Part shown: one piece after another, positions 3,634 to 64,000 of the stretch
Layout: the number at the start of each line of letters is the position of its first letter
How positions within the stretch are numbered: position 1 is the first letter of the stretch
From: Siphonodentalium dalli
Lineage: Eukaryota; Mollusca; Scaphopoda; Gadilida; Siphonodentaliidae
DNA: 64,000 bases
Direction of reading: 5' to 3'
NCBI GenBank assembly: GCA_032622095.1
Contig: CP136064.1
Coordinates: 262,797,863-262,861,862 of the forward strand
Position numbers and translations under genes: made by a program
The notes under the pieces: model-generated
What the model was told of the DNA's origin: nothing
The model's input: only the letters and a program-made list of their open reading frames with translations
The model's database searches: none

Positions 3634-3766
3634 ATATCGTCTGGGGATAAGATTTTCGTCAACGTGACTTAACCATAAACGGAATATTAACCCTGTTTAT
3701 ATTAAATGGATTATCCCATACAGTTATCGATATATATATTTTGAGACTTCCGTATATATGTATATA

Positions 3767-4559
3767 TCTATTATATATTTTGGGAGATCTGTGTGTTTGT
3801 GTGTGTGTGTGAGTGTGTGTGTGTTCGCGATGGACTCGAACACAGCTGGACCGATTTCGCCAAACTTGGTACGGACACGTAATTCGACCCGGGAACGAAC
3901 ATGGGCCTATTGATTTTCAGATCCGAGGTCATCTTTTCACGTGCCGATGTCAAATCTGTTTTTACGCTGTGTTACGGGACTTTCATTTGAGTTCGGTGCT
4001 TACAAATCGATTCGAAACAGCGCGAATAATAAAATGCCAGTCATAATAATGACACTTTGAGAATCTTTCGTGTTTCCTCTTTCCAACGATTTATAATGCG
4101 TATGTATCCGTTTTAGTTATCTGCCTCAATTATCAAGAAGTGGTACTATCTTCCATCAGGATAAAAACAATGCGTAACTTCTATGACGTCGTTAGAGGTC
4201 ATAACGTTAGATCACGTTAACGCTTAAACGGCCGATGCATTTGACTGTTTCAGACGTCTTGGCGATATCTCGGGCACCGATGGTAATTTATCTTTACGTT
4301 GAAACTTGGTAATTAATGAGCGTGTGTATATGAGGCGCGTTTATACACTTGAGTGGAAATCAAATCGGGTTAAACTGGCGGATTTGTACGGACGAAATTT
4401 GATGCATAGGGTATCTCGGTATCCGCTGGGCCGATTTCCCGGTATCCGCTGGGCGATTTCCACCATTTTTGGGGTGTTGGTGTTTGACCCCATCTGACCT
4501 TGACCTTCAAAATGGTCAATTCAAGGTCAAAGCCCGGACGAAGTCGGGTCACCTTCTAG
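3767..4559 (+). mobile_element. Helitron nested inside another Helitron
   Basis: The 5' end is A|TCTATTATATATTTTGGGAG at 3767. The 3' end has an imperfect hairpin CCCGGACGAAGTCGGG (4533-4548), a short spacer and CTAG at 4556-4559 followed by T. The sequence on either side (TTTTGAGACTTCCG before, the conserved Helitron body after) belongs to one outer element, so the nesting is visible directly. The interior contains TGACCTTGACC and TCAAGGTCA motifs and the phrase GGTATCCGCTGGGC, which also occur in the right-hand Helitron array. It is non-autonomous. Confidence 0.85.
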
Positions 4560-4851
4560 TATATATATATATGTGTGTGGGTACTTCATGGAATCAAAAA
4601 CGCGTGTACAGATTGAGCTCAAACTTCCTATGTAAGTGTAAAATTCCACCGACACCGCCGTGGTCGCGTTTTGGAGAAGCTCAGATCACCCGTTCTCCAA
4701 ACTCAGTCACAAAAAACGGCACTGCGGTGGTTAAGACATCAACGATCTTTATATTGACCTTATACGGAGGTGTTAACAATCAACGCTCTTTATTGCAATG
4801 GACGTGGCTAAACGACTGACCCCATGCGTCCGAAATGCGTTATCTTGGAAT

Positions 4852-5245
4852 CGGGTGGAGCTATCGACTTGAAATTTGCTATGTGAATGTATCTTGCCCC
4901 GGATACAAATATTATCCGGTCGCCGAGTCCGTGCGACGCCCGTACAGCGCGTGCGCAGACGAGATCTCGGAAACGGGTGGAGCTATCGACTTGAAATTTG
5001 GTATGTGAATGTATCTTGCCCCGGGTACGAATTTTATCGGGTCGCCGAGCCCGTGTGACGCCCGTACAGCGCGTGCGCAGACGAGATCTAGGAAACGGGT
5101 GGAGCTATCGACTTGAAATTTGCTATGTGAATGTATCTTGCCCCGGATACGAATTTTATCGGGTCGCCGAGCCCGTGCGACGCAAGCTTCGCGCATGCGC
5201 AGACCAGATCTCGGAAACGGGTGGAGCTATCAACTTGAAATTTGG
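4852..5245 (+). repeat. 122-bp minisatellite, three full copies plus a partial one
   Basis: CGGGTGGAGCTATCGACTTG begins at 4852, 4974 and 5096, and a near copy (CAACTTG) at 5218, so the period is 122 bp. The open frames at 4876-5058 (+) and 4912-5196 (-) are by-products of this repeat and have no coding support. It lies wholly inside the outer Helitron, just before its 3' hairpin. Confidence 0.85.
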
Positions 5246-5320
5246 TTAAATTAAAAAAATGTCATGTTTCTGAAACAAAGCCATGAGACGAATGCCGCCA
5301 GTGGCGGGCCAACCTGCTAG

Positions 5321-28020: not shown

Positions 28021-28297
28021 AGGCAATTCTTCAAGGATTGTCCACTTATAAATGGACAATCGGTACCTAAAATGGTCATTAATAAATGGACAATCCAACC
28101 ACGCGTGGCACGCGAGCTTGGGATTGTCCACTAAATGAAGACATGTTTTGTTAATCCTGAATGAAGGGCAATAACTCTATAAATAATGTTAATTTGCTAA
28201 ATAACGGTGATTTGTATGAGAAGAAGTGTTTTTGACGAAATAACGGAGAGATTTGAAGAAGAGTTTTTGACGAAATAACGGAAATGTTCGGAAATAT
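28021..28297. repeat. spacer with GATTGTCCA palindromes
   Basis: GATTGTCCA...TGGACAATC pairs occur at about 28036-28061, and again between about 28087 and 28130 around an ACGCGTGGCACGCG motif. This AT-rich spacer separates the two 27-bp satellite blocks. Confidence 0.6.
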
Positions 28298-29108
28298 TCG
28301 GCTACGGGGACACCATTTATATACCCGGCTACGGGGACACCCTTTATATACCCGGCAACGGGGACACCCTTTATATACCCGGCTACGGGGACACCCTTTA
28401 TATACCCGGCTACGGGGACACCCTTTATATACCCGGTTACGGGGACACCATTTATATACCCGGCTATGGGGACACCATTTATATACCCGGCTACCGGGAC
28501 ACCCTTTATATACCGGTCTACGGGGACACCCTTTTTATACCGTAAATCCTAACCACCTCGGCTACGGGGACACCCTTTATATACCCGGCTACGGGGACAC
28601 CCTTTATATATCCGTATACGGGGACACCCTTTATATACCCGGCTACGGGGACATCCTTTATATATCCGGCTACGGGGACATCCTTTATATATCCGGCTAC
28701 GGGGACACCCTTTTTATACCGTCGTAAATCCTAACCACCTCGGCTACGGGGACACCCTTTATATACCGGCTACGGGGACGCCCTTTCTATATCCGTATAT
28801 GGGGGCACCCTTTATATACCCGGCTACGGGGACACGTTTTATATACCCGGCTACGGGGACACCCTTTATATACCCGGCTACGGGGACACCCTTTATATAC
28901 CCGGCTACGGGGACACCCTTTATATACACGGCTACGGGGACACCCTTTATATACCGTAAATCCTAACCACCTCGGCTACGGGGACACCCTTTATATTCCC
29001 GGCTACGGGGACACCCTTTATATACCGTAAATCCTTACCATATCGGCTACGGGGACACCCTTTATATACCCGGCTACGGAGACACCCTTTATATACCGTA
29101 AATGGATA
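28298..29108. repeat. 27-bp satellite, main block
   Basis: About 28 copies of the CGGCTACGGGGACACCC/TTTATATAC unit are interrupted every few copies by CGTAAATCCTAACCACCTCG, giving a higher-order pattern. Variants include TCC for CCC and GTATACGGGG for GGCTACGGGG. Confidence 0.92.
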
Positions 29109-33327: not shown

Positions 33328-35826
33328 TTATTGAGTTTGTTTGCACGGAAGTGGCAACAGTTTCTCCTCCTTCTGCGGTCTAATACATTCATACAGTCGC
33401 TGCCAAAACATATGCTCCCCGAATCCTTCAGTGTATGTAATGTAAGTATCAAGCTCTCTGTGTTCCTTCATCTCCATGGGAATAAGCGACTCTGGAACGA
33501 AGCTGTATTCCACCAGAATAACGACGTTTCTATCAGAGTATATACCTTCCATTTTCGCCATGTTGAATTCATATCTGCACCACGAGCTCCGCACGTAGTC
33601 ACGTGATAAAATGACGACTGTACGTCTGCTATTATTAATAGCATTTAAGATGTTGGATGCAATTGCTTCGCCCGGCATAAAATCTCTCTGATGTAGACAC
33701 AATTTCAAACCGCGATCTTCCTCTAGAATTGGGATAATTTTACGGAAAATGAATTGATAATCCTCTGCTGCGTACGATATAAACACATCCCATTTGTACT
33801 CGTGTAAAGCCAGATTATCATAATCGTAATATTTCGACCGGAACAGATTGTACAAATACTGAAGTTTTAACCTCTCTTTATAAATCATCCCAATTAGAAT
33901 AGCGATAATTGCCAATGTGTTACATATTACACCAAACGCGATTATCAATGAGAAGGTGGCACAATTTAATTCCAGAGCGAGCAGTATGTTACCGATATCA
34001 GATTGTACAGTGGTTCCGTTCGGTAAGGTGCACTCAACAATGTGGTCATATGAAACATTTACACGTGTGTTTGTAAGCCAGTGAATGTAGTCAATGTTTT
34101 TGCACGAGCACTCCGGGGAATTCCCTGTAATGTCCAATCGAAACCCTGAACCAAACATTACCAGGGTTCTCCTGACAGACGCGGGTATTGTACTGATTCT
34201 GTTCCGTTTTAAACTGATGAACTGCAAACTCTTCATATGTGATATTTCTATGTTGATTTCGGTGATCGTATTGCCATTAAGAAGAATGGTTTTCATCTTT
34301 GTTTGATTAATGAAGATGTCATTATGTACGTCTCGTATATTGTTCACGCCAAGGTCAATCATCTCCAAATATCTCAATTCACTGAAAATGGCGCGGTGTT
34401 CAGGTCTCGACAAGACTATCCCCATCAAGTTATGACTGAGGTGTAGCTTTTTCAATCGTTTGCCGGCGTCGAAGAAACTAACTGACACACTACTGCATTG
34501 GTTTCCAGACAAATCGAGCATCGAGAGTGTCTCCATTGGCTGCAGGGAAACCCAATGTAATGCACCATTGTAACTATAATCGTAAATCTCCAGTGTTGGA
34601 ATAACACCGTAGGCAAAGTCTAGATAATCACGCTTCATTAGAGATCTGCTTACATCTAAATATATTAGAGATTTCAAAGATGATAATTGCGCATAGGCGG
34701 CTTGTGATGGGAGTAATCGGTTATAGCTCATGAAAAGATACTGGAGACCTTTCGGTAATAATTCTGGAAGCCCCGTCTCTACCGCCTCGATCGCGTTTGC
34801 ACCTATGTCAATGGAGCGCAAAGTCGTGTTTGTCATCCAAGATACGTGTTGTTTGCCGAGCATCACGCCTACGTCATAACGTCCAGTTATTTTGCTTACT
34901 TGTAGCAATACCAGCGTGGTCGACCCCCGAAATGGATAGAACGATGTTGCTAACACGTCCAATCCCAACCCTGGGTTGCGAGAAATATCCAAATGGCCGA
35001 CAGTGCGCACATGTGCAAATGTGGCGGGATGAATGGATTGAATGTTGCAATCACTAAGAGTGATGTTTCTGAGGTTAGGAATCGATTTGAAGAAATCCCG
35101 ATTGAGACGGTTTATTTGACAGAAGCCATAAGAATATCCCATCTTCAATGTCGTAAGATTAAAGAGGTTAACGGTGTCGGAGCTGAACGTGGCATTACTG
35201 AGTCCGTCTATCATCAGTTCTTCTAAAGATGTGAGTTTACCCAATGAATCGAGAGGGTAATGGTAAGATGGGTCCATGAATTGTATGTTACGACTCATAT
35301 ACAGAGTCTTTAGATTCACCAGGTTGATAAACAATTTTTCTGTGTAAGTCGATTGTGTCATTTTCAAATGATTCCCGGTTAAATCTAGTTCTATGAGTTC
35401 CATTAGACCATCAAATGCCAGAGGCTCCAATGTATCTATTCTGTTTTTTGACAAATCAAGTATGAGCAACACAGATGCACGCGTGAACACGTGATTAAGG
35501 ATAACCTCCAAATGGTTATGACTGAGATCGAGGGACAGACAGCCAGAATAGAATTCCGGGATCTCGGTAAATCCTTCCGATGGACACTCACATATCCATC
35601 CTGTTAACGTGAAGACGTCGCCTCTTCTCATTTGACAATTGCCAGCTGGCCTAATCATACTGGACCAATCACTGCTGCCACGAAGGGTCACATGTTGAGA
35701 ATCAATCACGCTCGTGAGAAAAACTGCATACAGATAAACCAATAACATCTCCATCGTGTTGTAAACGCACAGCAAAAGGTACTGAAAGGACATAAGCAAA
35801 AAATAATAATCATAGGATGGTCTCAT
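33328..35826 (-). CDS. Toll-like receptor, single exon, 832 aa
   Basis: Type I membrane receptor of innate immunity. The N-terminus is hydrophobic; the signal peptide is probably used from Met25 (MEMLLVYLYAVFLTSVIDSQ), as the 24 residues before it look like an upstream extension. LRRs run from about 90 to 560 (LDLSHNHL, LDLSKNRI, LDLTGNHL, LDLSGNQ, LHLSHNL, LKRNRI). One LRRCT follows with cysteines near 573, 575, 599 and 622, so it is a single-cysteine-cluster type. The membrane segment is about 625-649. The TIR domain is about 677-815: box 1 DVFISYA (680), box 2 RDFMPGE (714), box 3 FW (807). TIR-TIR contact with MyD88-type adaptors is expected from the family. The frame is intact and intronless. 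On the minus strand AATAAA overlaps the stop (33327-33332) and could serve polyadenylation. The ligand is unknown. Confidence 0.96.
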   Translation of the reverse strand: MRPSYDYYFLLMSFQYLLLCVYNTMEMLLVYLYAVFLTSVIDSQHVTLRGSSDWSSMIRPAGNCQMRRGDVFTLTGWICECPSEGFTEIPEFYSGCLSLDLSHNHLEVILNHVFTRASVLLILDLSKNRIDTLEPLAFDGLMELIELDLTGNHLKMTQSTYTEKLFINLVNLKTLYMSRNIQFMDPSYHYPLDSLGKLTSLEELMIDGLSNATFSSDTVNLFNLTTLKMGYSYGFCQINRLNRDFFKSIPNLRNITLSDCNIQSIHPATFAHVRTVGHLDISRNPGLGLDVLATSFYPFRGSTTLVLLQVSKITGRYDVGVMLGKQHVSWMTNTTLRSIDIGANAIEAVETGLPELLPKGLQYLFMSYNRLLPSQAAYAQLSSLKSLIYLDVSRSLMKRDYLDFAYGVIPTLEIYDYSYNGALHWVSLQPMETLSMLDLSGNQCSSVSVSFFDAGKRLKKLHLSHNLMGIVLSRPEHRAIFSELRYLEMIDLGVNNIRDVHNDIFINQTKMKTILLNGNTITEINIEISHMKSLQFISLKRNRISTIPASVRRTLVMFGSGFRLDITGNSPECSCKNIDYIHWLTNTRVNVSYDHIVECTLPNGTTVQSDIGNILLALELNCATFSLIIAFGVICNTLAIIAILIGMIYKERLKLQYLYNLFRSKYYDYDNLALHEYKWDVFISYAAEDYQFIFRKIIPILEEDRGLKLCLHQRDFMPGEAIASNILNAINNSRRTVVILSRDYVRSSWCRYEFNMAKMEGIYSDRNVVILVEYSFVPESLIPMEMKEHRELDTYITYTEGFGEHMFWQRLYECIRPQKEEKLLPLPCKQTQ

Positions 35827-35868
35827 ATATAGAGGATCTACAACGAGCCACCAGTTTATCTGAGGTCT

Positions 35869-37656
35869 AGACCTAATTTAATGGACGAATTTTGTAAATT
35901 CCGCTATAAATTGGGATGAGTTGTAGATTCTATTTATTACATGATCCAAAACATTCTTAAATCAACAAATGGGACGCGAAACTAAGGTGACGTTCACACA
36001 TAGCCGGTGAAGCCGTTACCCGGCGAACCCGTTAGCCGGCGAAGGTTGGGCAGAGTGTTTACACATCGCCGGCGAAGATAAGCATATATTCATGTGTCTC
36101 CTTTACTTGTTAATAGTTTTCGTTTTAGTTCTCACTGAACTGCAATATGATATTGCTGTACACCTGTAAACATCTAGCCGCTTCCTGTTAGAGATATGGT
36201 TGGGCAGTATAGTGAAATGAAACTTTTTAGAAATGGAAATGCTGAAATTATTAACATCCAACTCAAACTTTCAGGTATTGCTATTGGTAATTTTATAGAT
36301 ATTTAAAAAACATTGTTAATGGTTTGTTTGGATTCATATACAGCATGTGAAGTGAGTGTCGCACCAAAAGCATGGCCATTGTCAGTTTTGAGATCTTTTC
36401 GTCGCATACATCTACAAATTGGTGTCTAATCATTCGGATTGGATTTTATATTATATATATAAGTTTCAACATCGCGAATCTATTGTGACACATTTTCCGT
36501 TTGCACATTATACAATAAAATATGTTTTTCATTTTACTCGGGCGTTCACCATGTCCATGTATATAGGGCCGTGGCGATGGGGTGTCTCATCCCAACTTTA
36601 ATCAAAATATTCAAAAGCTGGAAATTTCATACCTGACACGGCAATAGTTGGACATTTGACACCAGCAATATGTTGAAATTGTTCTCGTAGTTTTATTTTC
36701 ATCAATTTGTTATTGGTGATTTCTTTAGGCAACATTTGCTTATTTTTTTACCAAATTGTTGGACTGAAATGACCATCAGTTGGAAATGATCCAACCTTAT
36801 TAGAGGTGCGTCAAGTTTGGAAAATGTCCAACAATTGGAAATATTAAGGCTGAATGCTAGGGTTTTGCAATTTTCAGGGTTCAGATTAAAAAAATTCTCA
36901 CACCTGCCATAACCACGGTCGGTCGATAAATTCCAAAGATGAACAGTCCCACACTCAGATTTAGATTATTGAACTAATTTTCCATTAAGTTTGAATCCAT
37001 AGAAACGTGCCATCCCATTTCCTCCATATATATATATGGACATACATGTACATGAATTAATTCCCTCGAATGCGCAACAAATGTACCATGCACATGCAGA
37101 GTACGTGTACCATCATCGGTTAGTATTTATAATAATAGCTTATAACCAAGGTGCGTGACCACCGACCTGACAGCTGATTAGAGACAATCAAACTGGCACA
37201 CTGACCAATATATACACAGGTGAAAAGCGGGCTGGTCTATCAGAGATTACACAATACTATTGTTCGAGTTAATTGTTGAAAGGAAATCACCCATGACGGC
37301 ATGACCACAGATAAACATCTAACTTAACCGCAGAGCGAATTAGAATCCACACGACAATCAGGTGCTTGTACTAAATCATTTTATCCAAAAGTTGAAAACC
37401 GTATAGCTGAGTATCCGGATAGCCGTAATTCTTATCCGGCGAAGTATAAACACTCTATTGTTATCGCTGCCGGCTAAAGCGAATGCGATCTTCGCCGGGT
37501 AATGTATAAACACCCCCTAAGATCGGCTTCTATAAGGCATGCGATGACGTTTCACGCAACTATGCGTTGTTTGTCCGCGTAAAGAAATAGTCCCAGATAA
37601 ATAAAGATTCTTTGGGGTATTTAATGGCAAATATTTAATGACATAACTTTTCAAAC
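35869..37656 (+). repeat. TLR-flanking direct repeat, 5'-side copy, split by a transposon
   Basis: 35869-35985 and 37521-37656 together match 32888-33158. The interruption is the TAA-flanked element at 35986-37517. The uninterrupted sister copy reads AAATTAACATCGGC where this one reads AAACTAA[element]TAAGATCGGC. Confidence 0.82.
35986..37517. mobile_element. 1.53-kb non-autonomous element with TAA duplication (PIF/Harbinger-like)
   Basis: TAA at 35983-35985 and 37518-37520. The left end is GGTGACGTTCACACATAGCC and the right end is ...GCCGGGTAATGTATAAACACCCCC. CCGGCGAA/TTCGCCGG motifs are repeated near both ends. No transposase frame is present. The element lies upstream of the TLR start and could affect its promoter, but nothing in the sequence shows that. 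Confidence 0.75.
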
Positions 37657-38772: not shown

Positions 38773-40557
38773 CCAACAAACATAGTTTGTATGTGATAAC
38801 TGATATGACGCGATGGCACCATCATATATTCAGAATGATGTTGCCCACATACGAACGTTTTATTGTGATAAATTATATGAAACGACTATGTTCAGAATAC
38901 TGTGATTTTGTTTATAAACAACACACTTACATAAACTCGCCTCACAGATAGCTGCCAGATATATTTTTCTCTAGGCGGAGGCGGGAAAAAATTCCGGACA
39001 CCAAGCCACTTTTTAAATGTTGACCTATCTTCGCACCACCATTTGTTTACAAATAATTTCCGGTGTATTTTCAGAGACCAATATTTTGTGGCCAATTCAG
39101 TTAATCGGTGGTAATGGCGGAGCCAAATGCGAGAAACGGGTATTTGTGGTAGTATATTCGCCCTGTAATTTTTCGAAAACACCACACTGTCACCATTCTA
39201 GTTATCTTCGAACTTAACACGGTATTTCAATACACACATGCCTCGTAATTATCCAAGCTGCAAACCAGTTCAGTCCCCTTGCTACGCTATGTTTGACCGC
39301 TGCCGGCATGTGTATTTTCTTAATTAAATTTAATATTTTTTATTGAAGTGTTTTGTCAGTTACAATTCATTCTGGCTTGATCTAGACAATTTTCAAACGA
39401 ATATGGACAGTTCTGTTTCTCAGAATAATGCAGAATGAATTGTAACCTACAAAATTTTCAAATAAATAAATGTGACATGTCTTCACATTACGTGTATGTG
39501 CGGGCAGGGGTAACTCTACATGGAGCTCGGTAATTATCAATGAAATGTATAGTGACTGCAGTCATAGAAAACACTCAGCCAATTCACGACTTTTTAAAAA
39601 CAAATTTAATGCGCTGGATAAAACATAGTCCCTCAATTAGTATCACTCTTACCGCTACAAATGCTGATTTAGGTAAAACAAATTGCCATATAAAGCAGAA
39701 ATAAATATGCACAAAAATTAGTTTCTGCTGTAACTGATATCTTTTTCAGATCTTTGTCACTTACAAATGATTTTTCATCGGCGACCTGACCCATATCTTT
39801 GATTTGACTTCAACTTGAATGAAAGTGTCTATGACACTGTAGCTCAACTTGTATTGGGGATTATTTCATGTGTTACAGTCAAGTGAGCGATTAGGAATGC
39901 GGAAAGTTAAAATGTCTAAGTAATACTAGATGTCAAATGAGGATATATATATATAAAGTAACTTCCAAGATGTCTGCCATGTTTTTTACCGAGTTTCGGA
40001 ATAAAATAGATGGCTCCCATCTAGAGGTCACCCCGAAAATCCACATGACGTTTGCTGACCTGTAGGGTGTGCTAACCGAAAACTGTTGACGGACGCACGG
40101 CTCGGCGCACGGGAGAACGAAAGCACGCAAAGACGGACGACGGACGCCAACCCAAGACAATAGCTCAAACATGACTTCAAGTTGAGCTAAAAATGGAAAT
40201 TGCTTTTACTAATTGCATGTATGTTTCACGCCGTCTCTGTTTCGTGTCAAGAAATGTTGTCACATAATATCGAGACAATGATATTTAGGGAATAACGGTG
40301 TGTTCGGAAAGTTACATGGCGAATATACTGGCTGGCTGTCAAATTGTGTTAAACCTATAATAATTGTTTATTCTTACGCCATGTGTACATGGGTTTAAAG
40401 AATTAGATATAAGAAAAACACAAATAATTAACAAGAGCATGGCGTGGACATCAAATTCACTGGAAATGTATTCAAATGTATATATGATGGATGTGACAAA
40501 TCGATACATATATAAATATTATTCAATATCATTAGATTTTCAACGTTCGGTCTGTGG
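38773..40557. other. no intact gene; degraded repeats
   Basis: 39484-39530 resembles the flanks of the Harbinger-like element at 29811. 39958-40085 (CCAAGATGTCTGCCATG, CTCCCATCTAGAGGTCAC, GGTGTGCTAA) is a diverged relative of 53455-53600 inside the 4683-bp unit. An inverted pair TTACAATTCATTCTG/CAGAATGAATTGTAA lies at about 39359 and 39430. Confidence 0.5.
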
Positions 40558-49779: not shown

Positions 49780-50575
49780 CTAGCAGGTTAGCCCGCCACT
49801 GGCGGCAATCGTCACAAACATGACAATTTTTAATTGTTTTAATTAATTTTTGTAATTAATTTTTGTAATTAATTTTTTAATTTAATTTTTCAATGAGTTA
49901 ATTGTGCCTTTTCAATTTAATGGTTTTTTTAATTAATTTTTGTATTTAATTTTTGTTTTTCAATGAGTTAATTGTGCCTTTTTAATTTTTTAATTATTTT
50001 TTTTGTTTTTCAATTTTACTCGATTTGACCTTGAATTGATCATTTTCAAGGTCAAGGTCAGGTCGGGGTCACAATTTAACCCGCCCATGACACTTCCCGT
50101 ACGTAGCAAGTTTGAGCTCAATCGGTTCGAGTCTATAAAGGACACACACATATATATCATTTGTGGGTACCCGTTTCAAGGTGAAGATCACCTCGGATGG
50201 AAAAACTGACCCGATGAAAATCTCCCCTGTTCCTAGGAAGCCCTAAGAACGAAATTCAGTACGATATTTCGCCTCGAGACGGTCAATGGAGCCGTATTTA
50301 TACTCGTCGTGTATATAGACGCTCTGTATCAACGACACTGATGATACGAACGCTCTTTAACTATCAACGCGATTAACACCACAGTGCCGTTTTTGTGACT
50401 GAGGGTGGAGAACGGGTGCTCGGAGCTTCTCCAAAACGACGCGACGACAATTTCCGTGGTTTTTTACCTTAGATGGGAAGTTTGAGCCCAATCGGTCCAG
50501 CCGCTTTCGAGTCTATAAAGGACAAATATACACATATATTTATATATATACGTAGTTCTCAAAATATATAGTAGA
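49780..50575 (-). mobile_element. Helitron 3 of a head-to-tail array (796 bp)
   Basis: On the minus strand it starts TCTACTATATATTTTGAGA at 50575 and ends with the hairpin CCGCCAGTGGCGG (49793-49805), a 9-nt spacer and CTAG at 49780-49783, followed by host T. Non-autonomous. The body is the same family as the outer Helitron at 3727-5320. The first ~130 bp at the left (49830-50020) are AT-rich low complexity. It contains two overlapping TCAAGGTCA motifs near 50046. Confidence 0.87.
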
Positions 50576-51681
50576 CTAGCAGGTTAGCCCGCCACTGGCG
50601 TGCTTGGTCAGAAACATGACAATGTTTTATGTTTTGTTTGTGTTTTTCAATGAGTTAATATTGGGTTTTTAAATATTTTACCCGATTTGACCTTGAATTT
50701 ATCATTTTCAAGGTCAAGGTCATGTCGGGGTCACAATATATAATTTGTGGGTACCAGTTTGAAGGTTAAGACTGACCCGATGAAAAATTCCCCGTTCCTA
50801 GGAACGACAGACATAAGAATGTTTCACACAATGCGACGTCGACGATCCCCGTGTGTTTTTTACACTTATATACGAAGTTTGAGCTCACCTAGGGCGGAAA
50901 AACTTACCCGATTCGCGTTCTTATGAACACAACACGCTCCGCGTTCTTAGGAACATGTCTATACACGCCCAGACCCAGAAGAGGTATGATTTTTTTAACC
51001 TGCCCGTGGCCATTGAGCAGCCCCTGACAGGAGTTGTCCACCCTTACGAGATGGTCAATAGTCCCCGCAAAGTTAATCCCGTCGTGAACCACATCCTCGC
51101 AAAGAGCGGACAGTCAATTAATCCCGCCGTGAACGCTATCACCAACGCGACGTAATTTTTTTTGGTATCATGTGTTGCGTTCTAAAAATAGGAAAGCACT
51201 TGTTCCCGTATACGTTTGCGTAAATACGAAATTGTGAGTGTTGGTTTGTAACCGGGATTTCTGAGAAGCATTATGCCTATAACTACCCCCCCCCCTAAGC
51301 CCTGACCTAAGTGTCATACATACTATAACAATGATGTTGTAAGAGTACTATGGCATCCAATAATTCTCCCCGCATAGGAAACCACTCAATGTTCCCGTAT
51401 TTCTCTCTGCAGATGCTAATAACGTTGAATGGTAAACAGACGCTCTTTATAGCGATGCGTCAAAAACAAACGCTCATTAAATAATCACTTGATTAACCCA
51501 CGCCGTGCCTTTGCGGTGATTTGGGAGTGGATAAAGGGTGCTCAGAGCTTCTCCAAAACCCGACAATTACGGTGTTCGTGTGTTTTACCCTTATATACGA
51601 AATTTGAGGTCGATGGGTGCAGTCGTTTTCGATTCTATAAAGTACACACACATACGGAAGTCTCAAAATATATAGTATAGA
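50576..51681 (-). mobile_element. Helitron 2 of the array (1106 bp)
   Basis: On the minus strand the 5' end is TCTATACTATATATTTTGAG at 51681, matching the reported Helitron 5' consensus TCTMTAYTA. The 3' end has the hairpin CGCCACTGGCG (50590-50600) and CTAG at 50576-50579. CTAG abuts the TC of the next element with no host base between. It contains a GC-richer open segment at 50955-51155. Confidence 0.87.
50955..51155 (+). other. possible captured coding fragment inside Helitron 2
   Basis: This is an open + frame (opposite to the Helitron) of 66 codons with higher GC and a protein-like run: DFFNLPVAIEQPLTGVVHPY, VNHILAKSGQSINPAVNAIT. Helitrons are known to carry captured gene pieces. No family is recognised and there is an upstream in-frame TGA, so it could equally be a chance frame. 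Confidence 0.25.
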
Positions 51682-52645
51682 CTAGCTGAGTACCCGTCCT
51701 GACGGGGAGAGTCGTTGTGTTGTTGTTTTTTCACCAACACCCCAAACAATGGTGGAAATCGGCCCAGCGGATACCGAGATACAGGTTCAAGGTCATTTGA
51801 AAGGTCAAGATCACGCTGGGTGGGACGGAATTTATTGGCATCCCCATCTACAACAATACCCCAAAAATGGTGGAAATCGGCAGAGCGGATCCCGAGATAC
51901 GGTTTCAATGTAATTTGAAAGGTCAAGGTCATTTTGAAAATGTTTGGCTACCCGAACTATCCCTACCTACGAAATTTCATCCCGATCGTCCCATCGCATT
52001 CCGAGATACAGAGTCAAGGTCATTTGAAGGTCAAGGTCACGCCGCACGGGCATCTGGGTGGGACGAAATGCATTGGCATTCCCATCTACACCAACACCCC
52101 AAAAATGGTGAAAATCAGCCCAGCGGATACCGAGATAAAGGTTCAAGATCATTTGAAAGATCAAGGTCACGCTACTACCCGTTGAACATATTTGGCTACC
52201 CGAACCATCCCTACCTACGAAATTTTATCCCGATCATCCCATCAGATCCGGAGATAGAGAGTCAAGGTCATTTGAAGGCCAAGATCACGTCGCACGGGCA
52301 TCTCGCTGGGACGAAATTTATTGGCATCCCCATCTACACCAACACCCCGAAAATGGTGGTAATCGGCCCAGCGGATACCTAGATACAGGTTCAATGTCAT
52401 TTGAAAGGTCAAGGTCACGCCGCACGGGCATCCGAGCGTAACGAAATGGCTCGGCGCCTCACACTGCCCCTACATACCAAATTGGTCCAAATCGGCCCAG
52501 CAGGAGCCGAGATACAGGTTGAAGGTCACCGGTTTGAAGGTCAAGGTCACTCCGCACGGGCAAACGGATAAGCCCATGTTGTCCTCTTTTCGAGTCCATC
52601 GCGGCCACACAGACACACACACACACTCCTCAAATATATAATAGA
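51682..52645 (-). mobile_element. Helitron 1 of the array (964 bp)
   Basis: On the minus strand it starts A|TCTATTATATATTTGAGGAG at 52645 and ends with the hairpin CCCGTCAGGACGGG (51693-51706), a 7-nt spacer and CTAG at 51682-51685, directly followed by the TC of Helitron 2. The body holds four diverged blocks of TACCCGAAC..CCCTACCTAC / TCGGCCCAGCGGATACCGAG / TTTGAA.GTCAAGGTCA and eight exact TCAAGGTCA motifs. The frames at 51867-52382 and similar are repeat by-products. Confidence 0.87.
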
Positions 52646-55600
52646 TATCTTCACAGTGTATAAACCGTACAAACATTAAATCGGAAGTTGTTTTCGAAAA
52701 GACAAAAAATGCTATTTTTAGAACGTAAATGTGACAGAAATGTCACAACAACACCACAAAATCCAGGTTTCAGACGGACACACGGTTGCACCACTTCTAC
52801 ATACACATTTGCCGATCGTAAGCGAGCTCCATTCGAGCGAAAGACTCTGTTTAATAGATCAAAATGGCCTTTGATCACTTCAGAAAATAATTTTCTCGCA
52901 AAATTTCCCTCTTCAAATGTCATTTTAACACATATCCAGCATCTGTCGGAAATCCCACTATATTGCAACGGAAAGACCGTTATGTGTGTAACATATATGG
53001 ACATGCCCTTGGCTCGATTGTATTCAAAATTTGAACGTAGAGAGTATTTATTTGGACACCCCGCTCTCAGTCTATGTACGCCTAGTTGTTAAAGTTGATG
53101 ATCACTAGTTGCCAAAAATATGTACGCCAAGTTGTGATGGGTTTGTGTGCAAAGACGAACCCGTGAATTAGGTTTCCATATTAGAGATACTCGGTCTACC
53201 GATGGTCATTATTAACCTTCAATCACAAGAGGAAGTTACTGTTCCGCTCCACATCCGTTTTCCGATTCTGGGATAGGGACCCACTCCATCCAAACTGCGT
53301 CAAATGACTATTTTACTCAGTGTTCCTGATCTATCTTTTCATTATCATGATTATAGAAGCATTCCTACTTTTATATACCAACAGCACTGTAAAGTTTCAA
53401 AACAATTCTCCAATAAATGTGGGCTGTAGGGTATGCTGATGGATTGACATTTTAAATCCAAGATGGCTGCAGGTGCCCATGTTTGTTTTAAACAAATTTT
53501 GGGGAACAATGGAGGCTCCCATTTAGAGGTCACGTCGAAGATCCATATGGAGTTCGGTGACGATTTGATGAGAAATGTGACCTGTAAAGTGTGCTAAAGG
53601 ATTTGGTCATACAAAGAGTAAAATCCAAGATGGCCAAAATGGCAGCCATTTATTTTACAAAATTTGGAAAAAATCGAAGGCACCCATCGAGAGGTCTCAA
53701 CGAAGATCCATTTAAAGGTTGGTAATGATCGGATGAGGGATAAGCTCTGCATGGTGTGTTAAAGGATTTAGTGATGCAAAGAGTAAAATGCAAGATGGCT
53801 GCCAGTGGCCATATTTTTCAAAAAAAATCATTCAAATTTGACAGCTCTCCTCGATCCATATACCGAATATTGTTGAAATCGGTCAAAGTTTGTTTTAACA
53901 CATTTGTTTTATTTTATTACAGATTTTTAATAGTCTATTTTTATTTGAAGAGTTAAAGGTACTCAATCCGAAATGTCTATTTCCTTGGCATCGGCGGTAA
54001 AAGATATTTGATCCGAGTCGAGGAACCGACCCATCAAAGCTCAGAGTAATCAGATCTCGATGTTTGAATTCTATTATTTTAATTTTAGGTGGCCCAGTAA
54101 ATAGTCGACGAGAAGACTTCTCTGAACAAATTGCGGATGAAGATGGATAACTCTAAAATCAAGTGACTTTTTTGTGTCAGATATTTGACAATAACATGTT
54201 TTGGGCAATTGTATACTATAGTTGACTGTGATTAACAATATTTTTGGGCAATTACTCGATTCTTATAACTGAAGCGGCATTTGTTTTTAAATTGTTGTTG
54301 TTGGAATCTGATGATATGGGGACCATCGAATCGGATTGAGTACCTTTACGTGAAGAGTTTACATTTATTTGAAGAATATATTATTGTGTTATGTTTTCGA
54401 TTAAATGATTTTTAATAAAACTATTTAAATATGAGCCTTTCCATGCCAGTGTGCAATTATAGATCCTTGGTGAAAACATTTAGCAAGCTGACATTTTTAT
54501 TACCCCTTGGTGTCATTCCTCATTATTAACTGCTGGTGAACTCAACCCCCCTACCAAGAGTTAAGTGCATACATATTACATAATTGAAGCATTCTTAAAA
54601 CCTTTTTGTCCCATTATTTTGAAGAAAAATGACTCTAGGAAAAACATTACAGGGACAGGGAAAATGTGTAAGCATGGCTGCAGAACCAACCACCGCCCCA
54701 CCTAGTGTTCGAAAAACAATTGCAGACCCCACCGTTGACGTATACAAATTCCATCACAGAATACAACATATTTCCTCAACCCCCAAATACAGTTTTGTTA
54801 CATGCGGAGTCGAATAAAAGTAGCTAAGTGTTAATCGGAATACCTTGTTTGATTCAGGCAGAGTCTATACGTTCAATGCCGTGACATGTCGAAGACATAG
54901 TTATGTTTAAGTGGGTCGAAAGGAACATATCATTACTATACGATTCATGTACAACGTCGCAACTGGTATTGTCGTCGTACACAACTTGCCGGACATAGAC
55001 TGAAGAGTGGGGTGTCCAAATAAATACTCTCTACTTTCAAATTGTGAATACACTCGAGCCAAGGGCATGTCCATATATAGTCTGGTCGATAAAAGGTTTG
55101 ACCTAGAAAAAATTTGGACTAAGTTGGTTTTTATTCCATTTTGAAGAGGAATATTTCCTCTACAACATATCCAAAATCCGCTAAAATCCGCTTTGAGCAA
55201 ACTTTTTTACAGAGATTTTAAAAAATGCTCATTTTTCGACCTTGCGAAGTACGTTTTTCTACAATATCCCGCATCGGCGACACCAGGACGCATTAATCCT
55301 CCATCCGATATATACCAGTTTGTGTAAAAGAGTATAGGAGGCGAATAGAGTGACAAGGACAGAAAACAATGCATTCGCGGCGATGAAATGGCTGTCAAAA
55401 TGGCCGCAACTACAATCCATGCTACGATGAAAGCAATATATTGGATAACCCCCTATAAGCGAAAATACACATTTGTAATTTACAAGAATGTTGTTATATA
55501 TCTTTAAAGGCACACATATAATTAAAACAGATCTATCTGAATTATTTATCGATCACTGCTACGCACGTTAACCCAATAATTTACGTTCGGGTTTTCTTAT

Positions 55601-56420
55601 TAGAATACATCCAACAGTCGGACCAAAATCAGTTATGTTGGGCATGGAACACACGAAGTAATATTTCGTCACACAGTGCGTGGTAGTTTCCTTTTGGAAT
55701 GGTGATTAATTATTGAATGTAAAGCAGAAACTGAAGTGTCCACCCTATCTGTGTAAATACTAGTTATATTTCCAGAATTTTCAACACTCTCCGTGACAAT
55801 AAACCATACACGTATGTCGTAATGCTGATTATACTGTCAAGAAACACTTATCTCTTCAACAGAATAGTACCCTATCTCACTAGATCGAAGAGACTGTACA
55901 TCGTACATTTTATTTAGTACTTATTTTCATGGTGCTCCCAAACCGGTTTCTTAGTAGTCAATTATGTTCAAATTACTTCAATCGACACTTTACAACATAA
56001 ATATGTACAACGCAATACACACTATTAGTTGTCAGTATCTTGTTGTTTGACATTATGTTACCATTGCCACCCATATACTTGCGGTAAATATCAGGTCATC
56101 AGCGTTTACAGTTATTAGTTCTGCGTTTACCATTCACTCAATGTTGCTATTTATGGTTTTGTATGCAGCAGATATGTGTAACATTAGGGAGAATGGGTAA
56201 ACGCGGCGATGCGGTTGCAGAAAAGGTCGTACGTTTCGCGTATATGTGGCCTTAGTGCATTTAAGTGCACACAATTTCCAGGTATAAAGACAGTCTCTGC
56301 CATAGAGTATGTAGGCAATTTGGGTTATGTTGAGAATTTATTGAAGATAGTCTATTGTAATCCTTTGTATTTTGATAAATTGCGTTCATGGTATACCACC
56401 ATGTATTTGTGTGATAAAAA
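51738..56420. repeat. 4683-bp tandem unit 1
   Basis: It starts inside Helitron 1 (CACCCCAAACAATGGTGG at 51738) and contains the rest of that Helitron to 52645, then about 3.78 kb of other sequence. In the latter are ATGGCTGCC/GGCAGCCAT motifs (53460, 53630, 53800), an inverted pair at 52993-53077 and 54993-55078, and the unit end GTATTTGTGTGATAAAAA. Opposed open frames at 52688-53092 (+) and 52651-53004 (-) have no recognised domain; both stay open in all units only because the units are almost identical. Confidence 0.95.
52993..55078. repeat. inverted repeat pair inside unit 1 (2.1-kb possible element)
   Basis: ATATATGGACATGCCCTTGG...CAAATAA-type sequence (the 52993-53077 arm) is the complement of 54993-55078 (CCAAGGGCATGTCCATATAT at its end), about 85 bp per arm with a few differences. 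The enclosed 1.9 kb may be a foldback element. The same pair recurs in the other units. Confidence 0.7.
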
Positions 56421-59400
56421 CACCCCAAACAATGGTGGAAATCGGCCCAGCGGATACCGAGATACAGGTTCAAGGTCATTTGAAAGGTCAAGATCACGCT
56501 GGGTGGGACGGAATTTATTGGCATCCCCATCTACAACAATACCCCAAAAATGGTGGAAATCGGCAGAGCGGATCCCGAGATACGGTTTCAATGTAATTTG
56601 AAAGGTCAAGGTCATTTTGAAAATGTTTGGCTACCCGAACTATCCCTACCTACGAAATTTCATCCCGATCGTCCCATCGCATTCCGAGATACAGAGTCAA
56701 GGTCATTTGAAGGTCAAGGTCACGCCGCACGGGCATCTGGGTGGGACGAAATGCATTGGCATTCCCATCTACACCAACACCCCAAAAATGGTGAAAATCA
56801 GCCCAGCGGATACCGAGATAAAGGTTCAAGATCATTTGAAAGATCAAGGTCACGCTACTACCCGTTGAACATATTTGGCTACCCGAACCATCCCTACCTA
56901 CGAAATTTTATCCCGATCATCCCATCAGATCCTGAGATAGAGAGTCAAGGTCATTTGAAGGCCAAGATCACGTCGCACGGGCATCTCGCTGGGACGAAAT
57001 TTATTGGCATCCCCATCTACACCAACACCCCGAAAATGGTGGTAATCGGCCCAGCGGATACCTAGATACAGGTTCAATGTCATTTGAAAGGTCAAGGTCA
57101 CGCCGCACGGGCATCCGAGCGTAACGAAATGGCTCGGCGCCTCACACTGCCCCTACATACCAAATTGGTCCAAATCGGCCCAGCAGGAGCCGAGATACAG
57201 GTTGAAGGTCACCGGTTTGAAGGTCAAGGTCACTCCGCACGGGCAAACGGATAAGCCCATGTTGTCCTCTTTTCGAGTCCATCGCGGCCACACAGACACA
57301 CACACACACTCCTCAAATATATAATAGATATCTTCACAGTGTATAAACCGTACAAACATTAAATCGGAAGTTGTTTTCGAAAAGACAAAAAATGCTATTT
57401 TTAGAACGTAAATGTGACAGAAATGTCACAACAACACCACAAAATCCAGGTTTCAGACGGACACACGGTTGCACCACATCTACATACACATTTGCCGATC
57501 GTAAGCGAGCTCCATTCGAGCGAAAGACTCTGTTTAATAGATCAAAATGGCCTTTGATCACTTCAGAAAATAATTTTCTCGCAAAATTTCCCTCTTCAAA
57601 TGTCATTTTAACACATATCCAGCATCTGTCGGAAATCCCACTATATTGCAACGGAAAGACCGTTATGTGTGTAACATATATGGACATGCCCTTGGCTCGA
57701 TTGTATTCAAAATTTGAACGTAGAGAGTATTTATTTGGACACCCCGCTCTCAGTCTATGTACGCCTAGTTGTTAAAGTTGATGATCACTAGTTGCCAAAA
57801 ATATGTACGCCAAGTTGTGATGGGTTTGTGTGCAAAGACGAACCCGTGAATTAGGTTTCCATATTAGAGATACTCGGTCTACCGATGGTCATTATTAACC
57901 TTCAATCACAAGAGGAAGTTACTGTTCCGCTCCACATCCGTTTTCCGATTCTGGGATAGGGACCCACTCCATCCAAACTGCGTCAAATGACTATTTTACT
58001 CAGTGTTCCTGATCTATCTTTTCATTATCATGATTATAGAAGCATTCCTACTTTTATATACCAACAGCACTGTAAAGTTTCAAAACAATTCTCCAATAAA
58101 TGTGGGCTGTAGGGTATGCTGATGGATTGACATTTTAAATCCAAGATGGCTGCAGGTGCCCATGTTTGTTTTAAACAAATTTTGGGGAACAATGGAGGCT
58201 CCCATTTAGAGGTCACGTCGAAGATCCATATGGAGTTCGGTGACGATTTGATGAGAAATGTGACCTGTAAAGTGTGCTAAAGGATTTGGTCATACAAAGA
58301 GTAAAATCCAAGATGGCCAAAATGGCAGCCATTTATTTTACAAAATTTGGAAAAAATCGAAGGCACCCATCGAGAGGTCTCAACGAAGATCCATTTAAAG
58401 GTTGGTAATGATCGGATGAGGGATAAGCTCTGCATGGTGTGTTAAAGGATTTAGTGATGCAAAGAGTAAAATGCAAGATGGCTGCCAGTGGCCATATTTT
58501 TCAAAAAAAATCATTCAAATTTGACAGCTCTCCTCGATCCATATACCGAATATTGTTGAAATCGGTCAAAGTTTGTTTTAACACATTTGTTTTATTTTAT
58601 TACAGATTTTTAATAGTCTATTTTTATTTGAAGAGTTAAAGGTACTCAATCCGAAATGTCTATTTCCTTGGCATCGGCGGTAAAAGATATTTGATCCGAG
58701 TCGAGGAACCGACCCATCAAAGCTCAGAGTAATCAGATCTCGATGTTTGAATTCTATTATTTTAATTTTAGGTGGCCCAGTAAATAGTCGACGAGAAGAC
58801 TTCTCTGAACAAATTGCGGATGAAGATGGATAACTCTAAAATCAAGTGACTTTTTTGTGTCAGATATTTGACAATAACATGTTTTGGGCAATTGTATACT
58901 ATAGTTGACTGTGATTAACAATATTTTTGGGCAATTACTCGATTCTTATAACTGAAGCGGCATTTGTTTTTAAATTGTTGTTGTTGGAATCTGATGATAT
59001 GGGGACCATCGAATCGGATTGAGTACCTTTACGTGAAGAGTTTACATTTATTTGAAGAATATATTATTGTGTTATGTTTTCGATTAAATGATTTTTAATA
59101 AAACTATTTAAATATGAGCCTTTCCATGCCAGTGTGCAATTATAGATCCTTGGTGAAAACATTTAGCAAGCTGACATTTTTATTACCCCTTGGTGTCATT
59201 CCTCATTATTAACTGCTGGTGAACTCAACCCCCCTACCAAGAGTTAAGTGCATACATATTACATAATTGAAGCATTCTTAAAACCTTTTTGTCCCATTAT
59301 TTTGAAGAAAAATGACTCTAGGAAAAACATTACAGGGACAGGGAAAATGTGTAAGCATGGCTGCAGAACCAACCACCGCCCCACCTAGTGTTCGAAAAAC

Positions 59401-61103
59401 AATTGCAGACCCCACCGTTGACGTATACAAATTCCATCACAGAATACAACATATTTCCTCAACCCCCAAATACAGTTTTGTTACATGCGGAGTCGAATAA
59501 AAGTAGCTAAGTGTTAATCGGAATACCTTGTTTGATTCAGGCAGAGTCTATACGTTCAATGCCGTGACATGTCGAAGACATAGTTATGTTTAAGTGGGTC
59601 GAAAGGAACATATCATTACTATACGATTCATGTACAACGTCGCAACTGGTATTGTCGTCGTACACAACTTGCCGGACATAGACTGAAGAGTGGGGTGTCC
59701 AAATAAATACTCTCTACTTTCAAATTGTGAATACACTCGAGCCAAGGGCATGTCCATATATAGTCTGGTCGATAAAAGGTTTGACCTAGAAAAAATTTGG
59801 ACTAAGTTGGTTTTTATTCCATTTTGAAGAGGAATATTTCCTCTACAACATATCCAAAATCCGCTAAAATCCGCTTTGAGCAAACTTTTTTACAGAGATT
59901 TTAAAAAATGCTCATTTTTCGACCTTGCGAAGTACGTTTTTCTACAATATCCCGCATCGGCGACACCAGGACGCATTAATCCTCCATCCGATATATACCA
60001 GTTTGTGTAAAAGAGTATAGGAGGCGAATAGAGTGACAAGGACAGAAAACAATGCATTCGCGGCGATGAAATGGCTGTCAAAATGGCCGCAACTACAATC
60101 CATGCTACGATGAAAGCAATATATTGGATAACCCCCTATAAGCGAAAATACACATTTGTAATTTACAAGAATGTTGTTATATATCTTTAAAGGCACACAT
60201 ATAATTAAAACAGATCTATCTGAATGATTTATCGATCACTGCTACGCACGTTAACCCAATAATTTACGTTCGGGTTTTCTTATTAGAATACATCCAACAG
60301 TCGGACCAAAATCAGTTATGTTGGGCATGGAACACACGAAGTAATATTTCGTCACACAGTGCGTGGTAGTTTCCTTTTGGAATGGTGATTAATTATTGAA
60401 TGTAAAGCAGAAACTGAAGTGTCCACCCTATCTGTGTAAATACTAGTTATATTTCCAGAATTTTCAACACTCTCCGTGACAATAAACCATACACGTATGT
60501 CGTAATGCTGATTATACTGTCAAGAAACACTTATCTCTTCAACAGAATAGTACCCTATCTCACTAGATCGAAGAGACTGTACATCGTACATTTTATTTAG
60601 TACTTATTTTCATGGTGCTCCCAAACCGGTTTCTTAGTAGTCAATTATGTTCAAATTACTTCAATCGACACTTTACAACATAAATATGTACAACGCAATA
60701 CACACTATTAGTTGTCAGTATCTTGTTGTTTGACATTATGTTACCATTGCCACCCATATACTTGCGGTAAATATCAGGTCATAAGCGTTTACAGTTATTA
60801 GTTCTGCGTTTACCATTCACTCAATGTTGCTATTTATGGTTTTGTATGCAGCAGATATGTGTAACATTAGGGAGAATGGGTAAACGCGGCGATGCGGTTG
60901 CAGAAAAGGTCGTACGTTTCGCGTATATGTGGCCTTAGTGCATTTAAGTGCACACAATTTCCAGGTATAAAGACAGTCTCTGCCATAGAGTATGTAGGCA
61001 ATTTGGGTTATGTTGAGAATTTATTGAAGATAGTCTATTGTAATCCTTTGTATTTTGATAAATTGCGTTCATGGTATACCACCATGTATTTGTGTGATAA
61101 AAA
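56421..61103. repeat. 4683-bp tandem unit 2
   Basis: Repeats unit 1 base for base apart from a handful of substitutions noticed by eye, for example 52250 G to T at 56933 and 52795 T to A at 57478. Its Helitron part begins at the same internal base, so it lacks the 56 bp carrying the hairpin and CTAG. The join reads GTGATAAAAA|CACCCCAAAC. Confidence 0.95.
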
Positions 61104-64000
61104 CACCCCAAACAATGGTGGAAATCGGCCCAGCGGATACCGAGATACAGGTTCAAGGTCATTTGAAAGGTCAAGATCACGCTGGGTGGGACGGAATTTA
61201 TTGGCATCCCCATCTACAACAATACCCCAAAAATGGTGGAAATCGGCAGAGCGGATCCCGAGATACGGTTTCAATGTAATTTGAAAGGTCAAGGTCATTT
61301 TGAAAATGTTTGGCTACCCGAACTATCCCTACCTACGAAATTTCATCCCGATCGTCCCATCGCATTCCGAGATACAGAGTCAAGGTCATTTGAAGGTCAA
61401 GGTCACGCCGCACGGGCATCTGGGTGGGACGAAATGCATTGGCATTCCCATCTACACCAACACCCCAAAAATGGTGAAAATCAGCCCAGCGGATACCGAG
61501 ATAATGGTTCAAGATCATTTGAAAGATCAAGGTCACGCTACTACCCGTTGAACATATTTGGCTACCCGAACCATCCCTACCTACGAAATTTTATCCCGAT
61601 CATCCCATCTGATCCTGAGATAGAGAGTCAAGGTCATTTGAAGGCCAAGATCACGTCGCACGGGCATCTCGCTGGGACGAAATTTATTGGCATCCCCATC
61701 TACACCAACACCCCGAAAATGGTGGTAATCGGCCCAGCGGATACCTAGATACAGGTTCAATGTCATTTGAAAGATCAAGGTCACGCCGCACGGGCATCCG
61801 AGCGTAACGAAATGGCTCGGCGCCTCACACTGCCCCTACATACCAAATTGGTCCAAATCGGCCCAGCAGGAGCCGAGATACAGGTTGAAGGTCACCGGTT
61901 TGAAGGTCAAGGTCACTCCGCACGGGCAAACGGATAAGTCCATGTTGTCCTCTTTTCGAGTCCATCGCGGCCACACAGACACACACACACACTCCTCAAA
62001 TATATAATAGATATCTTCACAGTGTATAAACCGTACAAACATTAAATCGGAAGTTGTTTTCGAAAAGAAAAAAAATGCTATTTTTAGAACGTAAATGTGA
62101 CAGAAATGTCACAACAACACCACAAAATCCAGGTTTCAGACGGACACACGGTTGCACCACATCTACATACACATTTGCCGATCGTAAGCGAGCTCCATTC
62201 GAGCGAAAGACTCTGTTTAATAGATCAAAATGGCCTTTGATCACTTCAGAAAATAATTTTCTCGCAAAATTTCCCTCTTCAAATGTCATTTTAACACATA
62301 TCCAGCATCTGTCGGAAATCCCACTATATTGCAACGGAAAGACCGTTATGTGTGTAACATATATGGACATGCCCTTGGCTCGATTGTATTCAAAATTTGA
62401 ACGTAGAGAGTATTTATTTGGACACCCCGCTCTCAGTCTATGTACGCCTAGTTGTTAAAGTTGATGATCACTAGTTGCCAAAAATATGTACGCCAAGTTG
62501 TGATGGGTTTGTGTGCAAAGACGAACCCGTGAATTAGGTTTCCATATTAGAGATACTCGGTCTACCGATGGTCATTATTAACCTTCAATCACAAGAGGAA
62601 GTTACTGTTCCGCTCCACATCCGTTTTCCGATTCTGGGATAGGGACCCACTCCATCCAAACTGCGTCAAATGACTATTTTACTCAGTGTTCCTGATCTAT
62701 CTTTTCATTATCATGATTATAGAAGCATTCCTACTTTTATATACCAACAGCACTGTAAAGTTTCAAAACAATTCTCCAATAAATGTGGGCTGTAGGGTAT
62801 GCTGATGGATTGACATTTTAAATCCAAGATGGCTGCAGGTGCCCATGTTTGTTTTAAACAAATTTTGGGGAACAATGGAGGCTCCCATTTAGAGGTCACG
62901 TCGAAGATCCATATGGAGTTCGGTGACGATTTGATGAGAAATGTGACCTGTAAAGTGTGCTAAAGGATTTGGTCATACAAAGAGTAAAATCCAAGATGGC
63001 CAAAATGGCAGCCATTTATTTTACAAAATTTGGAAAAAATCGAAGGCACCCATCGAGAGGTCTCAACGAAGATCCATTTAAAGGTTGGTAATGATCGGAT
63101 GAGGGATAAGCTCTGCATGGTGTGTTAAAGGATTTAGTGATGCAAAGAGTAAAATGCAAGATGGCTGCCAGTGGCCATATTTTTCAAAAAAAATCATTCA
63201 AATTTGACAGCTCTCCTCGATCCATATACCGAATATTGTTGAAATCGGTCAAAGTTTGTTTTAACACATTTGTTTTATTTTATTACAGATTTTTAATAGT
63301 CTATTTTTATTTGAAGAGTTAAAGGTACTCAATCCGAAATGTCTATTTCCTTGGCATCGGCGGTAAAAGATATTTGATCCGAGTCGAGGAACCGACCCAT
63401 CAAAGCTCAGAGTAATCAGATCTCGATGTTTGAATTCTATTATTTTAATTTTAGGTGGCCCAGTAAATAGTCGACGAGAAGACTTCTCTGAACAAATTGC
63501 GGATGAAGATGGATAACTCTAAAATCAAGTGACTTTTTTGTGTCAGATATTTGACAATAACATGTTTTGGGCAATTGTATACTATAGTTGACTGTGATTA
63601 ACAATATTTTTGGGCAATTACTCGATTCTTATAACTGAAGCGGCATTTGTTTTTAAATTGTTGTTGTTGGAATCTGATGATATGGGGACCATCGAATCGG
63701 ATTGAGTACCTTTACGTGAAGAGTTTACATTTATTTGAAGAATATATTATTGTGTTATGTTTTCGATTAAATGATTTTTAATAAAACTATTTAAATATGA
63801 GCCTTTCCATGCCAGTGTGCAATTATAGATCCTTGGTGAAAACATTTAGCAAGCTGACATTTTTATTACCCCTTGGTGTCATTCCTCATTGTTAACTGCT
63901 GGTGAACTCAACCCCCCTACCAAGAGTTAAGTGCATACATATTACATAATTGAAGCATTCTTAAAACCTTTTTGTCCCATTATTTTGAAGAAAAATGACT
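61104..64000. repeat. 4683-bp tandem unit 3, cut by the window end
   Basis: The first 2897 bp of a third unit. Private differences include 61610 (A to T relative to unit 1) and an A-run change in GAAAAGAAAAAAAATGC (about 62065). The array continues beyond the window, so copy number is unknown. Confidence 0.95.

Follow-up and report, generated by a model that had tools for sequence, protein, structure and literature searches.

How did a 4.7-kb segment come to be repeated head to tail with its junction inside a Helitron? A first-pass annotation of this locus described the array as what a rolling-circle product with failed termination would leave, and named unequal crossing-over or an assembly artefact as alternatives. 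We analyzed the window, the whole 64,000-nucleotide stretch of DNA in which the array lies. The array is probably a recent tandem segmental duplication, produced by an illegitimate event with its left breakpoint inside the Helitron (called Helitron A here) and then enlarged by unequal exchange.

Units, junctions and passenger of the array

When the window was compared with itself at an offset of 4683 bp, identity per 250 bp stayed at a background of 0.18–0.32 up to 51.75 kb and was then 0.99–1.00 to the limit of the comparison. The array consists of at least three near-identical head-to-tail units with a period of 4683 bp. It is real, and at such length and identity chance is ruled out as an issue. 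Unit starts were set by maximal leftward extension, to the first mismatch, at this offset. Unit 1 occupies 51736–56418 and unit 2 occupies 56419–61101 (4683 bp each). Unit 3 runs from 61102 to the window edge at 64000, which gives its first 2899 bp. The exact spacing proposed in the first-pass annotation was borne out by the identity profile and by the extension. The edge of the array had been put at 51738; an edge is present, but extension places it at 51736. The three units described there do start at 4683-bp spacing, but the third is only partial, and the right end of the array and its right-hand breakpoint lie beyond 64000.

Both internal joins are identical and read ...GTGTGATAAA followed directly by AACACCCCAAAC, in short GATAAA joined to AACACC. 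Thus the later units do connect the end of the non-Helitron segment, or passenger, straight to the Helitron interior, as had been noted. At the left edge of the array the same sequence is preceded by a different one (...TTTTTTCACC followed by AACACCCCAAAC, in short TTCACC joined to AACACC). The flank to the left of unit 1 is intact and continues through the undisturbed Helitron A and then through two more Helitrons, B and C.

The units are separated by substitutions only, with no indels, and these are as few as the first-pass annotation had them: 4 in 4683 bp between units 1 and 2, 6 in 2899 bp between units 2 and 3, and 8 in 2899 bp between units 1 and 3. There are 10 variable sites in all, 8 of them within the 2899 bp common to the three units; transitions account for 3 of the 10 differences and transversions for 7. 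Units 1 and 2 are identical for the first 514 bp from the array edge and differ equally little in the Helitron part (1/910) and in the passenger (3/3773). The Helitron parts of units 2 and 3 show 4 differences in 910 bp. Within the shared 2899 bp, unit 1 has 2 private changes, unit 2 has none and unit 3 has 6 (exact p 0.033; post hoc, uncorrected). Five of the six private changes of unit 3 fall within 565 bp, at 61505–62069 (p 0.028; post hoc, uncorrected). The excess divergence of unit 3 speaks mildly against a single burst of copying, and the clustering may reflect gene conversion or a local error in the sequence.

The passenger (52646–56418 in unit 1) is located upstream, on the 5′ side, of the complete Helitron A. 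Its length had been given as about 3.78 kb; the segment is there, and its exact length is 3773 bp, or 80.6% of the 4683-bp unit, all of it unrecognised as Helitron. A Pfam search (E 0.01) with 9 of the 18 listed stop-to-stop open reading frames of at least 60 aa that overlap the passenger, the minus-strand frames being one codon short, returned no family. One open reading frame inside Helitron A likewise had no Pfam family at E 0.01, and Rfam returned nothing in the whole window. The 4.7-kb unit is apparently non-coding, and there is no indication of a function for the array. Outside the array, the passenger has only short matches in the window, at approximately 939–979 and 39964–40059.

The passenger carries a transposon-like inverted-repeat element at 52993–55078, whose 98-bp arms are 92% identical. 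A smaller inverted-repeat element at about 53954–54348 is nested within it and has ends reading TAAAGGTACTCAATCCGA, beginning with TA. An exact scan for the passenger inverted repeat gave 0 matches in viral contigs, where animal genomes are not expected.

Two other features were seen in the wider window. On the minus strand, 33328–35877 holds an 849-residue open frame that combines leucine-rich repeats with a TIR domain, similar to a Toll-like receptor. This frame marks the window as animal DNA, and resemblance to known Helitrons would suggest a mollusc. The open frame at 28257–28727 consists of a short, repeated RGHPLYTRL-like motif and is the coding-frame view of a minisatellite.

Helitron A and its neighbours

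Helitron A is a complete, non-autonomous element of 964 bp on the minus strand (51682–52645). Its 5′ terminus begins with TC at 52645 and reads TCTATTATATATTTGAG (52629–52645, minus strand). Its 3′ end is CTAG (51682–51685), and the subterminal hairpin, CCCGTCAGGACGGG, has a 6-bp stem and ends 7 nt before it. This spacing is slightly short, since the hairpin of a Helitron usually lies 10–12 nt upstream of CTRR. In Helraiser it lies 11 nt before the 3′ end, according to the part of PMC4778049 cited here. The 5′ flank of Helitron A ends in A, the T of Helitron B follows its CTAG, and the 3′ flank of Helitron C starts with T, an arrangement that fits integration between A and T with no duplicated target.

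Satellite-like tandem repeats lie inside the element (51741–52562, minus strand) at spacings of 109–129 and 238–248 bp, and a TG microsatellite lies near the 5′ end. The internal repeats are diverged, and the left edge of the array falls in the repeat copy closest to the 3′ end. Short matches to these repeats occur at 4411–4483.

The first-pass annotation placed the repeat boundary 56 bp short of the Helitron 3′ end. The boundary does lie inside the element, but the distance is 54 bp. These 54 bp (51682–51735, minus strand), which contain the hairpin and CTAG, belong to the flank of unit 1 only and are unrepeated. A search of both strands of the window with the last 30 bp of Helitron A, allowing up to 6 substitutions, found this copy alone, which upholds the statement that only the leftmost unit keeps the hairpin and CTAG. 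The 5′ end is present in all three units, at 52629–52645, 57312–57328 and 61995–62011. Units 2 and 3 each contain a truncated minus-strand copy of 910 bp, at 56419–57328 (1 difference from Helitron A) and 61102–62011 (5 differences), which keeps the 5′ TC end and lacks the last 54 bp. The array as a whole therefore has three Helitron 5′ ends versus one 3′ end. This count agrees with the earlier description of a minus-strand chain of units, of which the last alone ends in the terminator.

Helitron B (50576–51681, minus strand, 1106 bp) has its 5′ TC abutting the CTAG of Helitron A, and Helitron C (49780–50575, minus strand, 796 bp) has its 5′ TC abutting the CTAG of Helitron B. The ends of Helitron B were read from the sequence; its 3′ stem is only 4 bp and was missed by strict pattern scans. 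From 49780 to 52645, three different Helitrons (C, B and A) thus follow one another head to tail, and at each of the two joins CTAG passes into TC with no spacer. The chain looks as if each later Helitron had inserted between A and T at the 5′ end of its predecessor.

A plus-strand Helitron is found at 3727–5320, with TC at 3727, a second 5′-like end at 3767 and CTAG at 5317–5320. It is possibly a nested pair, and it contains partial relatives, short stretches similar to Helitrons A, B and C. Weak 5′-like matches (up to 2 errors) at other sites, for example 9303, 13910 and 34655, are taken as chance. Recognised Helitrons make up 7.9% of the single-copy-equivalent sequence of the window, so a breakpoint inside one of them is no great coincidence. 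Exact scans with the 3′ end of the B/C type in viral contigs and with the 3′ end of Helitron A in prokaryote contigs gave 0 matches; animal genomes are not expected in either collection.

Origin of the array

Helitron copying begins at the 5′ end and runs to the 3′ hairpin, and bypass of the hairpin captures DNA beyond the 3′ end, as described in the cited parts of PMC4778049 and PMC12628747. Plain failed termination should therefore leave the terminator in every unit, with the downstream DNA (Helitrons B and C) as passenger. We set this reading aside. Units 2 and 3 have no terminator, the passenger is on the wrong (5′) side of Helitron A, and the matches of Helitrons B and C to the unit are only 17–23 bp long (12 rows, E 0.026–0.32); with an E threshold of 1e-3, no match over 25 bp to either was found within the array. 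The failed-termination product proposed in the first-pass annotation thus fits poorly, and the anatomy of the unit makes duplication with unequal exchange, close to the crossing-over alternative named there, the better reading. Nor does a terminator confined to the last unit favour a rolling circle, because any tandem duplication that breaks inside an element gives the same result.

The tandem duplication that we favour would have proceeded in two steps. First, an illegitimate event between sister chromatids, through end joining or microhomology-mediated replication restart, may have placed a second copy of a 4683-bp segment head to tail with the original. The sequence ending in GATAAA would thereby have been linked to the interior of Helitron A, 54 bp before its 3′ end. 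Further units could then have been added by unequal exchange between identical copies, or, alternatively, by re-integration of an excised 4.7-kb circle through homologous recombination. Helitron A would have been cut as a bystander, and the confinement of the terminator to the leftmost unit follows automatically from a breakpoint inside it. The array has near-identical units, a constant spacing and one repeated junction. The exact spacing without indels, the single identical internal junction and a left flank like that of an original locus all support duplication. So do the large share of the unit unrecognised as Helitron, on the side that read-through does not reach, and the equal divergence of Helitron part and passenger between units 1 and 2. 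Some observations count against it. The excess of 5′ over 3′ ends is also a signature of rolling-circle Helitron arrays in the cited part of PMC12628747, and the left breakpoint lies in the Helitron internal repeats near the hairpin, a site at which a process tied to Helitrons might operate. The divergence pattern of unit 3 and its clustering, judged by post hoc p values, also weigh on this side, as does the position of the right-hand breakpoint, with any microhomology there, outside the window.

A different kind of rolling circle was considered. A circle without a terminator, made of the first 910 bp of Helitron A and 3773 bp of transduced 3′ DNA, would have been copied repeatedly and inserted as a concatemer beside the 5′ end of the resident Helitron A. 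Such a concatemer would give the three 5′ ends and the one 3′ end, and it would give identical sequence up to 64000. On the Helitron strand the passenger does come after the truncated Helitron A in units 2 and 3, and each passenger meets the next TC exactly. Insertion at the 5′ end of another Helitron is seen in the chain of Helitrons A, B and C and is described for maize in the cited part of PMC2267711. According to the part of PMC4778049 cited here, Helraiser runs past its 3′ end, more often when the hairpin is missing, and produces circles whose ends are joined; the model itself comes from published work on plants and has also been applied to oyster Helitrons (PMC12628747 and PMC8268682, in the parts cited). 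However, this origin requires a separate ancestral element, and none is seen in the window. The concatemer must also be nearly equal to the resident Helitron A, which differs from the copy in unit 2 at 1 of 910 positions, fewer than the 4 that separate units 2 and 3 over the same length. An independently inserted Helitron A would be expected to stand out as the most divergent copy, although the numbers are few. Moreover, the published arrays are described, in the portions cited, as truncated Helitrons without a larger foreign segment. We consider this concatemer unlikely.

The other two explanations appear weaker still to us. One or two real units could have been multiplied in the assembly, through reads that were collapsed or wrongly joined or through the two haplotypes, an artefact that the very high identity would suit, as would the 7 transversions among 10 differences, which random errors might yield. 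Mis-joined haplotypes of a polymorphic animal would usually show indels, and here indels are absent, distinct substitutions set the units apart and the period is exact across two full spacings; we judge an assembly artefact quite improbable. Finally, Helitron A could have recombined, by unequal homologous exchange, with a second, 3′-truncated copy of its type that already lay to the right of the passenger with the edge GATAAA joined to AACACC. Exchange between transposable elements is a common route to tandem duplication, the internal repeats of Helitron A are of a recurring kind (the short matches at 4411–4483), and the junction taken alone is compatible with it. Yet an older copy should differ, and units 1 and 2 are identical over those first 514 bp and differ only once in the 910 bp of the Helitron part, unless conversion erased the differences. 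This exchange is very improbable. Tandem duplication by an illegitimate event remains the reading that we prefer.

As a tandem duplication the array is ordinary and of local interest, and a young macro-repeat of this kind could seed a satellite. A rolling-circle origin, if true, would provide evidence from within a genome that animal Helitrons can amplify and integrate concatemers bearing large passengers; the passenger would be four times the element's own part, caught at less than 0.3% divergence. In our judgment it is unlikely that an animal Helitron lost its terminator, picked up 3.8 kb from downstream by transduction and gave rise to a concatemer of several units next to a complete resident.

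Comparison with known systems

Among the matches listed in a search of the literature on Helitrons and tandem arrays in general, there was no description of this array. The rolling-circle model credited to Xiong et al. (2016) holds, in the cited parts of PMC12628747 and PMC8268682, that loss of the terminator from a circular template gives many 5′ ends and one 3′ end. Like the plant arrays described there, the present array is a head-to-tail chain with several 5′ ends (three), a single 3′ end and inner copies without a terminator. Unlike them, it is not built of truncated Helitrons alone, since 3773 of the 4683 bp of each unit are unrecognised as Helitron and the complete copy has the passenger on its upstream side. 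As to the recombination between internal repeats by which that model removes the terminator, one side of the junction lies in the internal repeats of Helitron A; the other side (…GATAAA) is identical to Helitron A there at only 11 of 40 positions, which is no similarity.

The head-to-tail Helitrons of maize, in the cited part of PMC2267711, which also cites cases from Myotis, resemble Helitrons A, B and C in joining CTAG to TC at a G/T junction with no spacer. Here three lie in a row, and the likeness concerns the neighbour of the array. Bivalve Helitrons with satellite-like repeats, likened by their description in the cited part of PMC8268682, share with Helitron A conserved-looking ends, a TG microsatellite near the 5′ end and central diverged repeats.

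For the yeast CUP1 arrays, attributed to unequal non-homologous recombination, the cited part of PMC4232551 reports that tandem arrays of a few kb can begin at joins where homology does not exceed 3 bp. Single-copy strains are known in yeast, and joins were compared on both sides, whereas here the comparison is with the left side alone and no gene is recognised in the unit. In both cases, near-identical units of a few kb are arranged head to tail, and a fixed junction unites two separate points of the single-copy locus.
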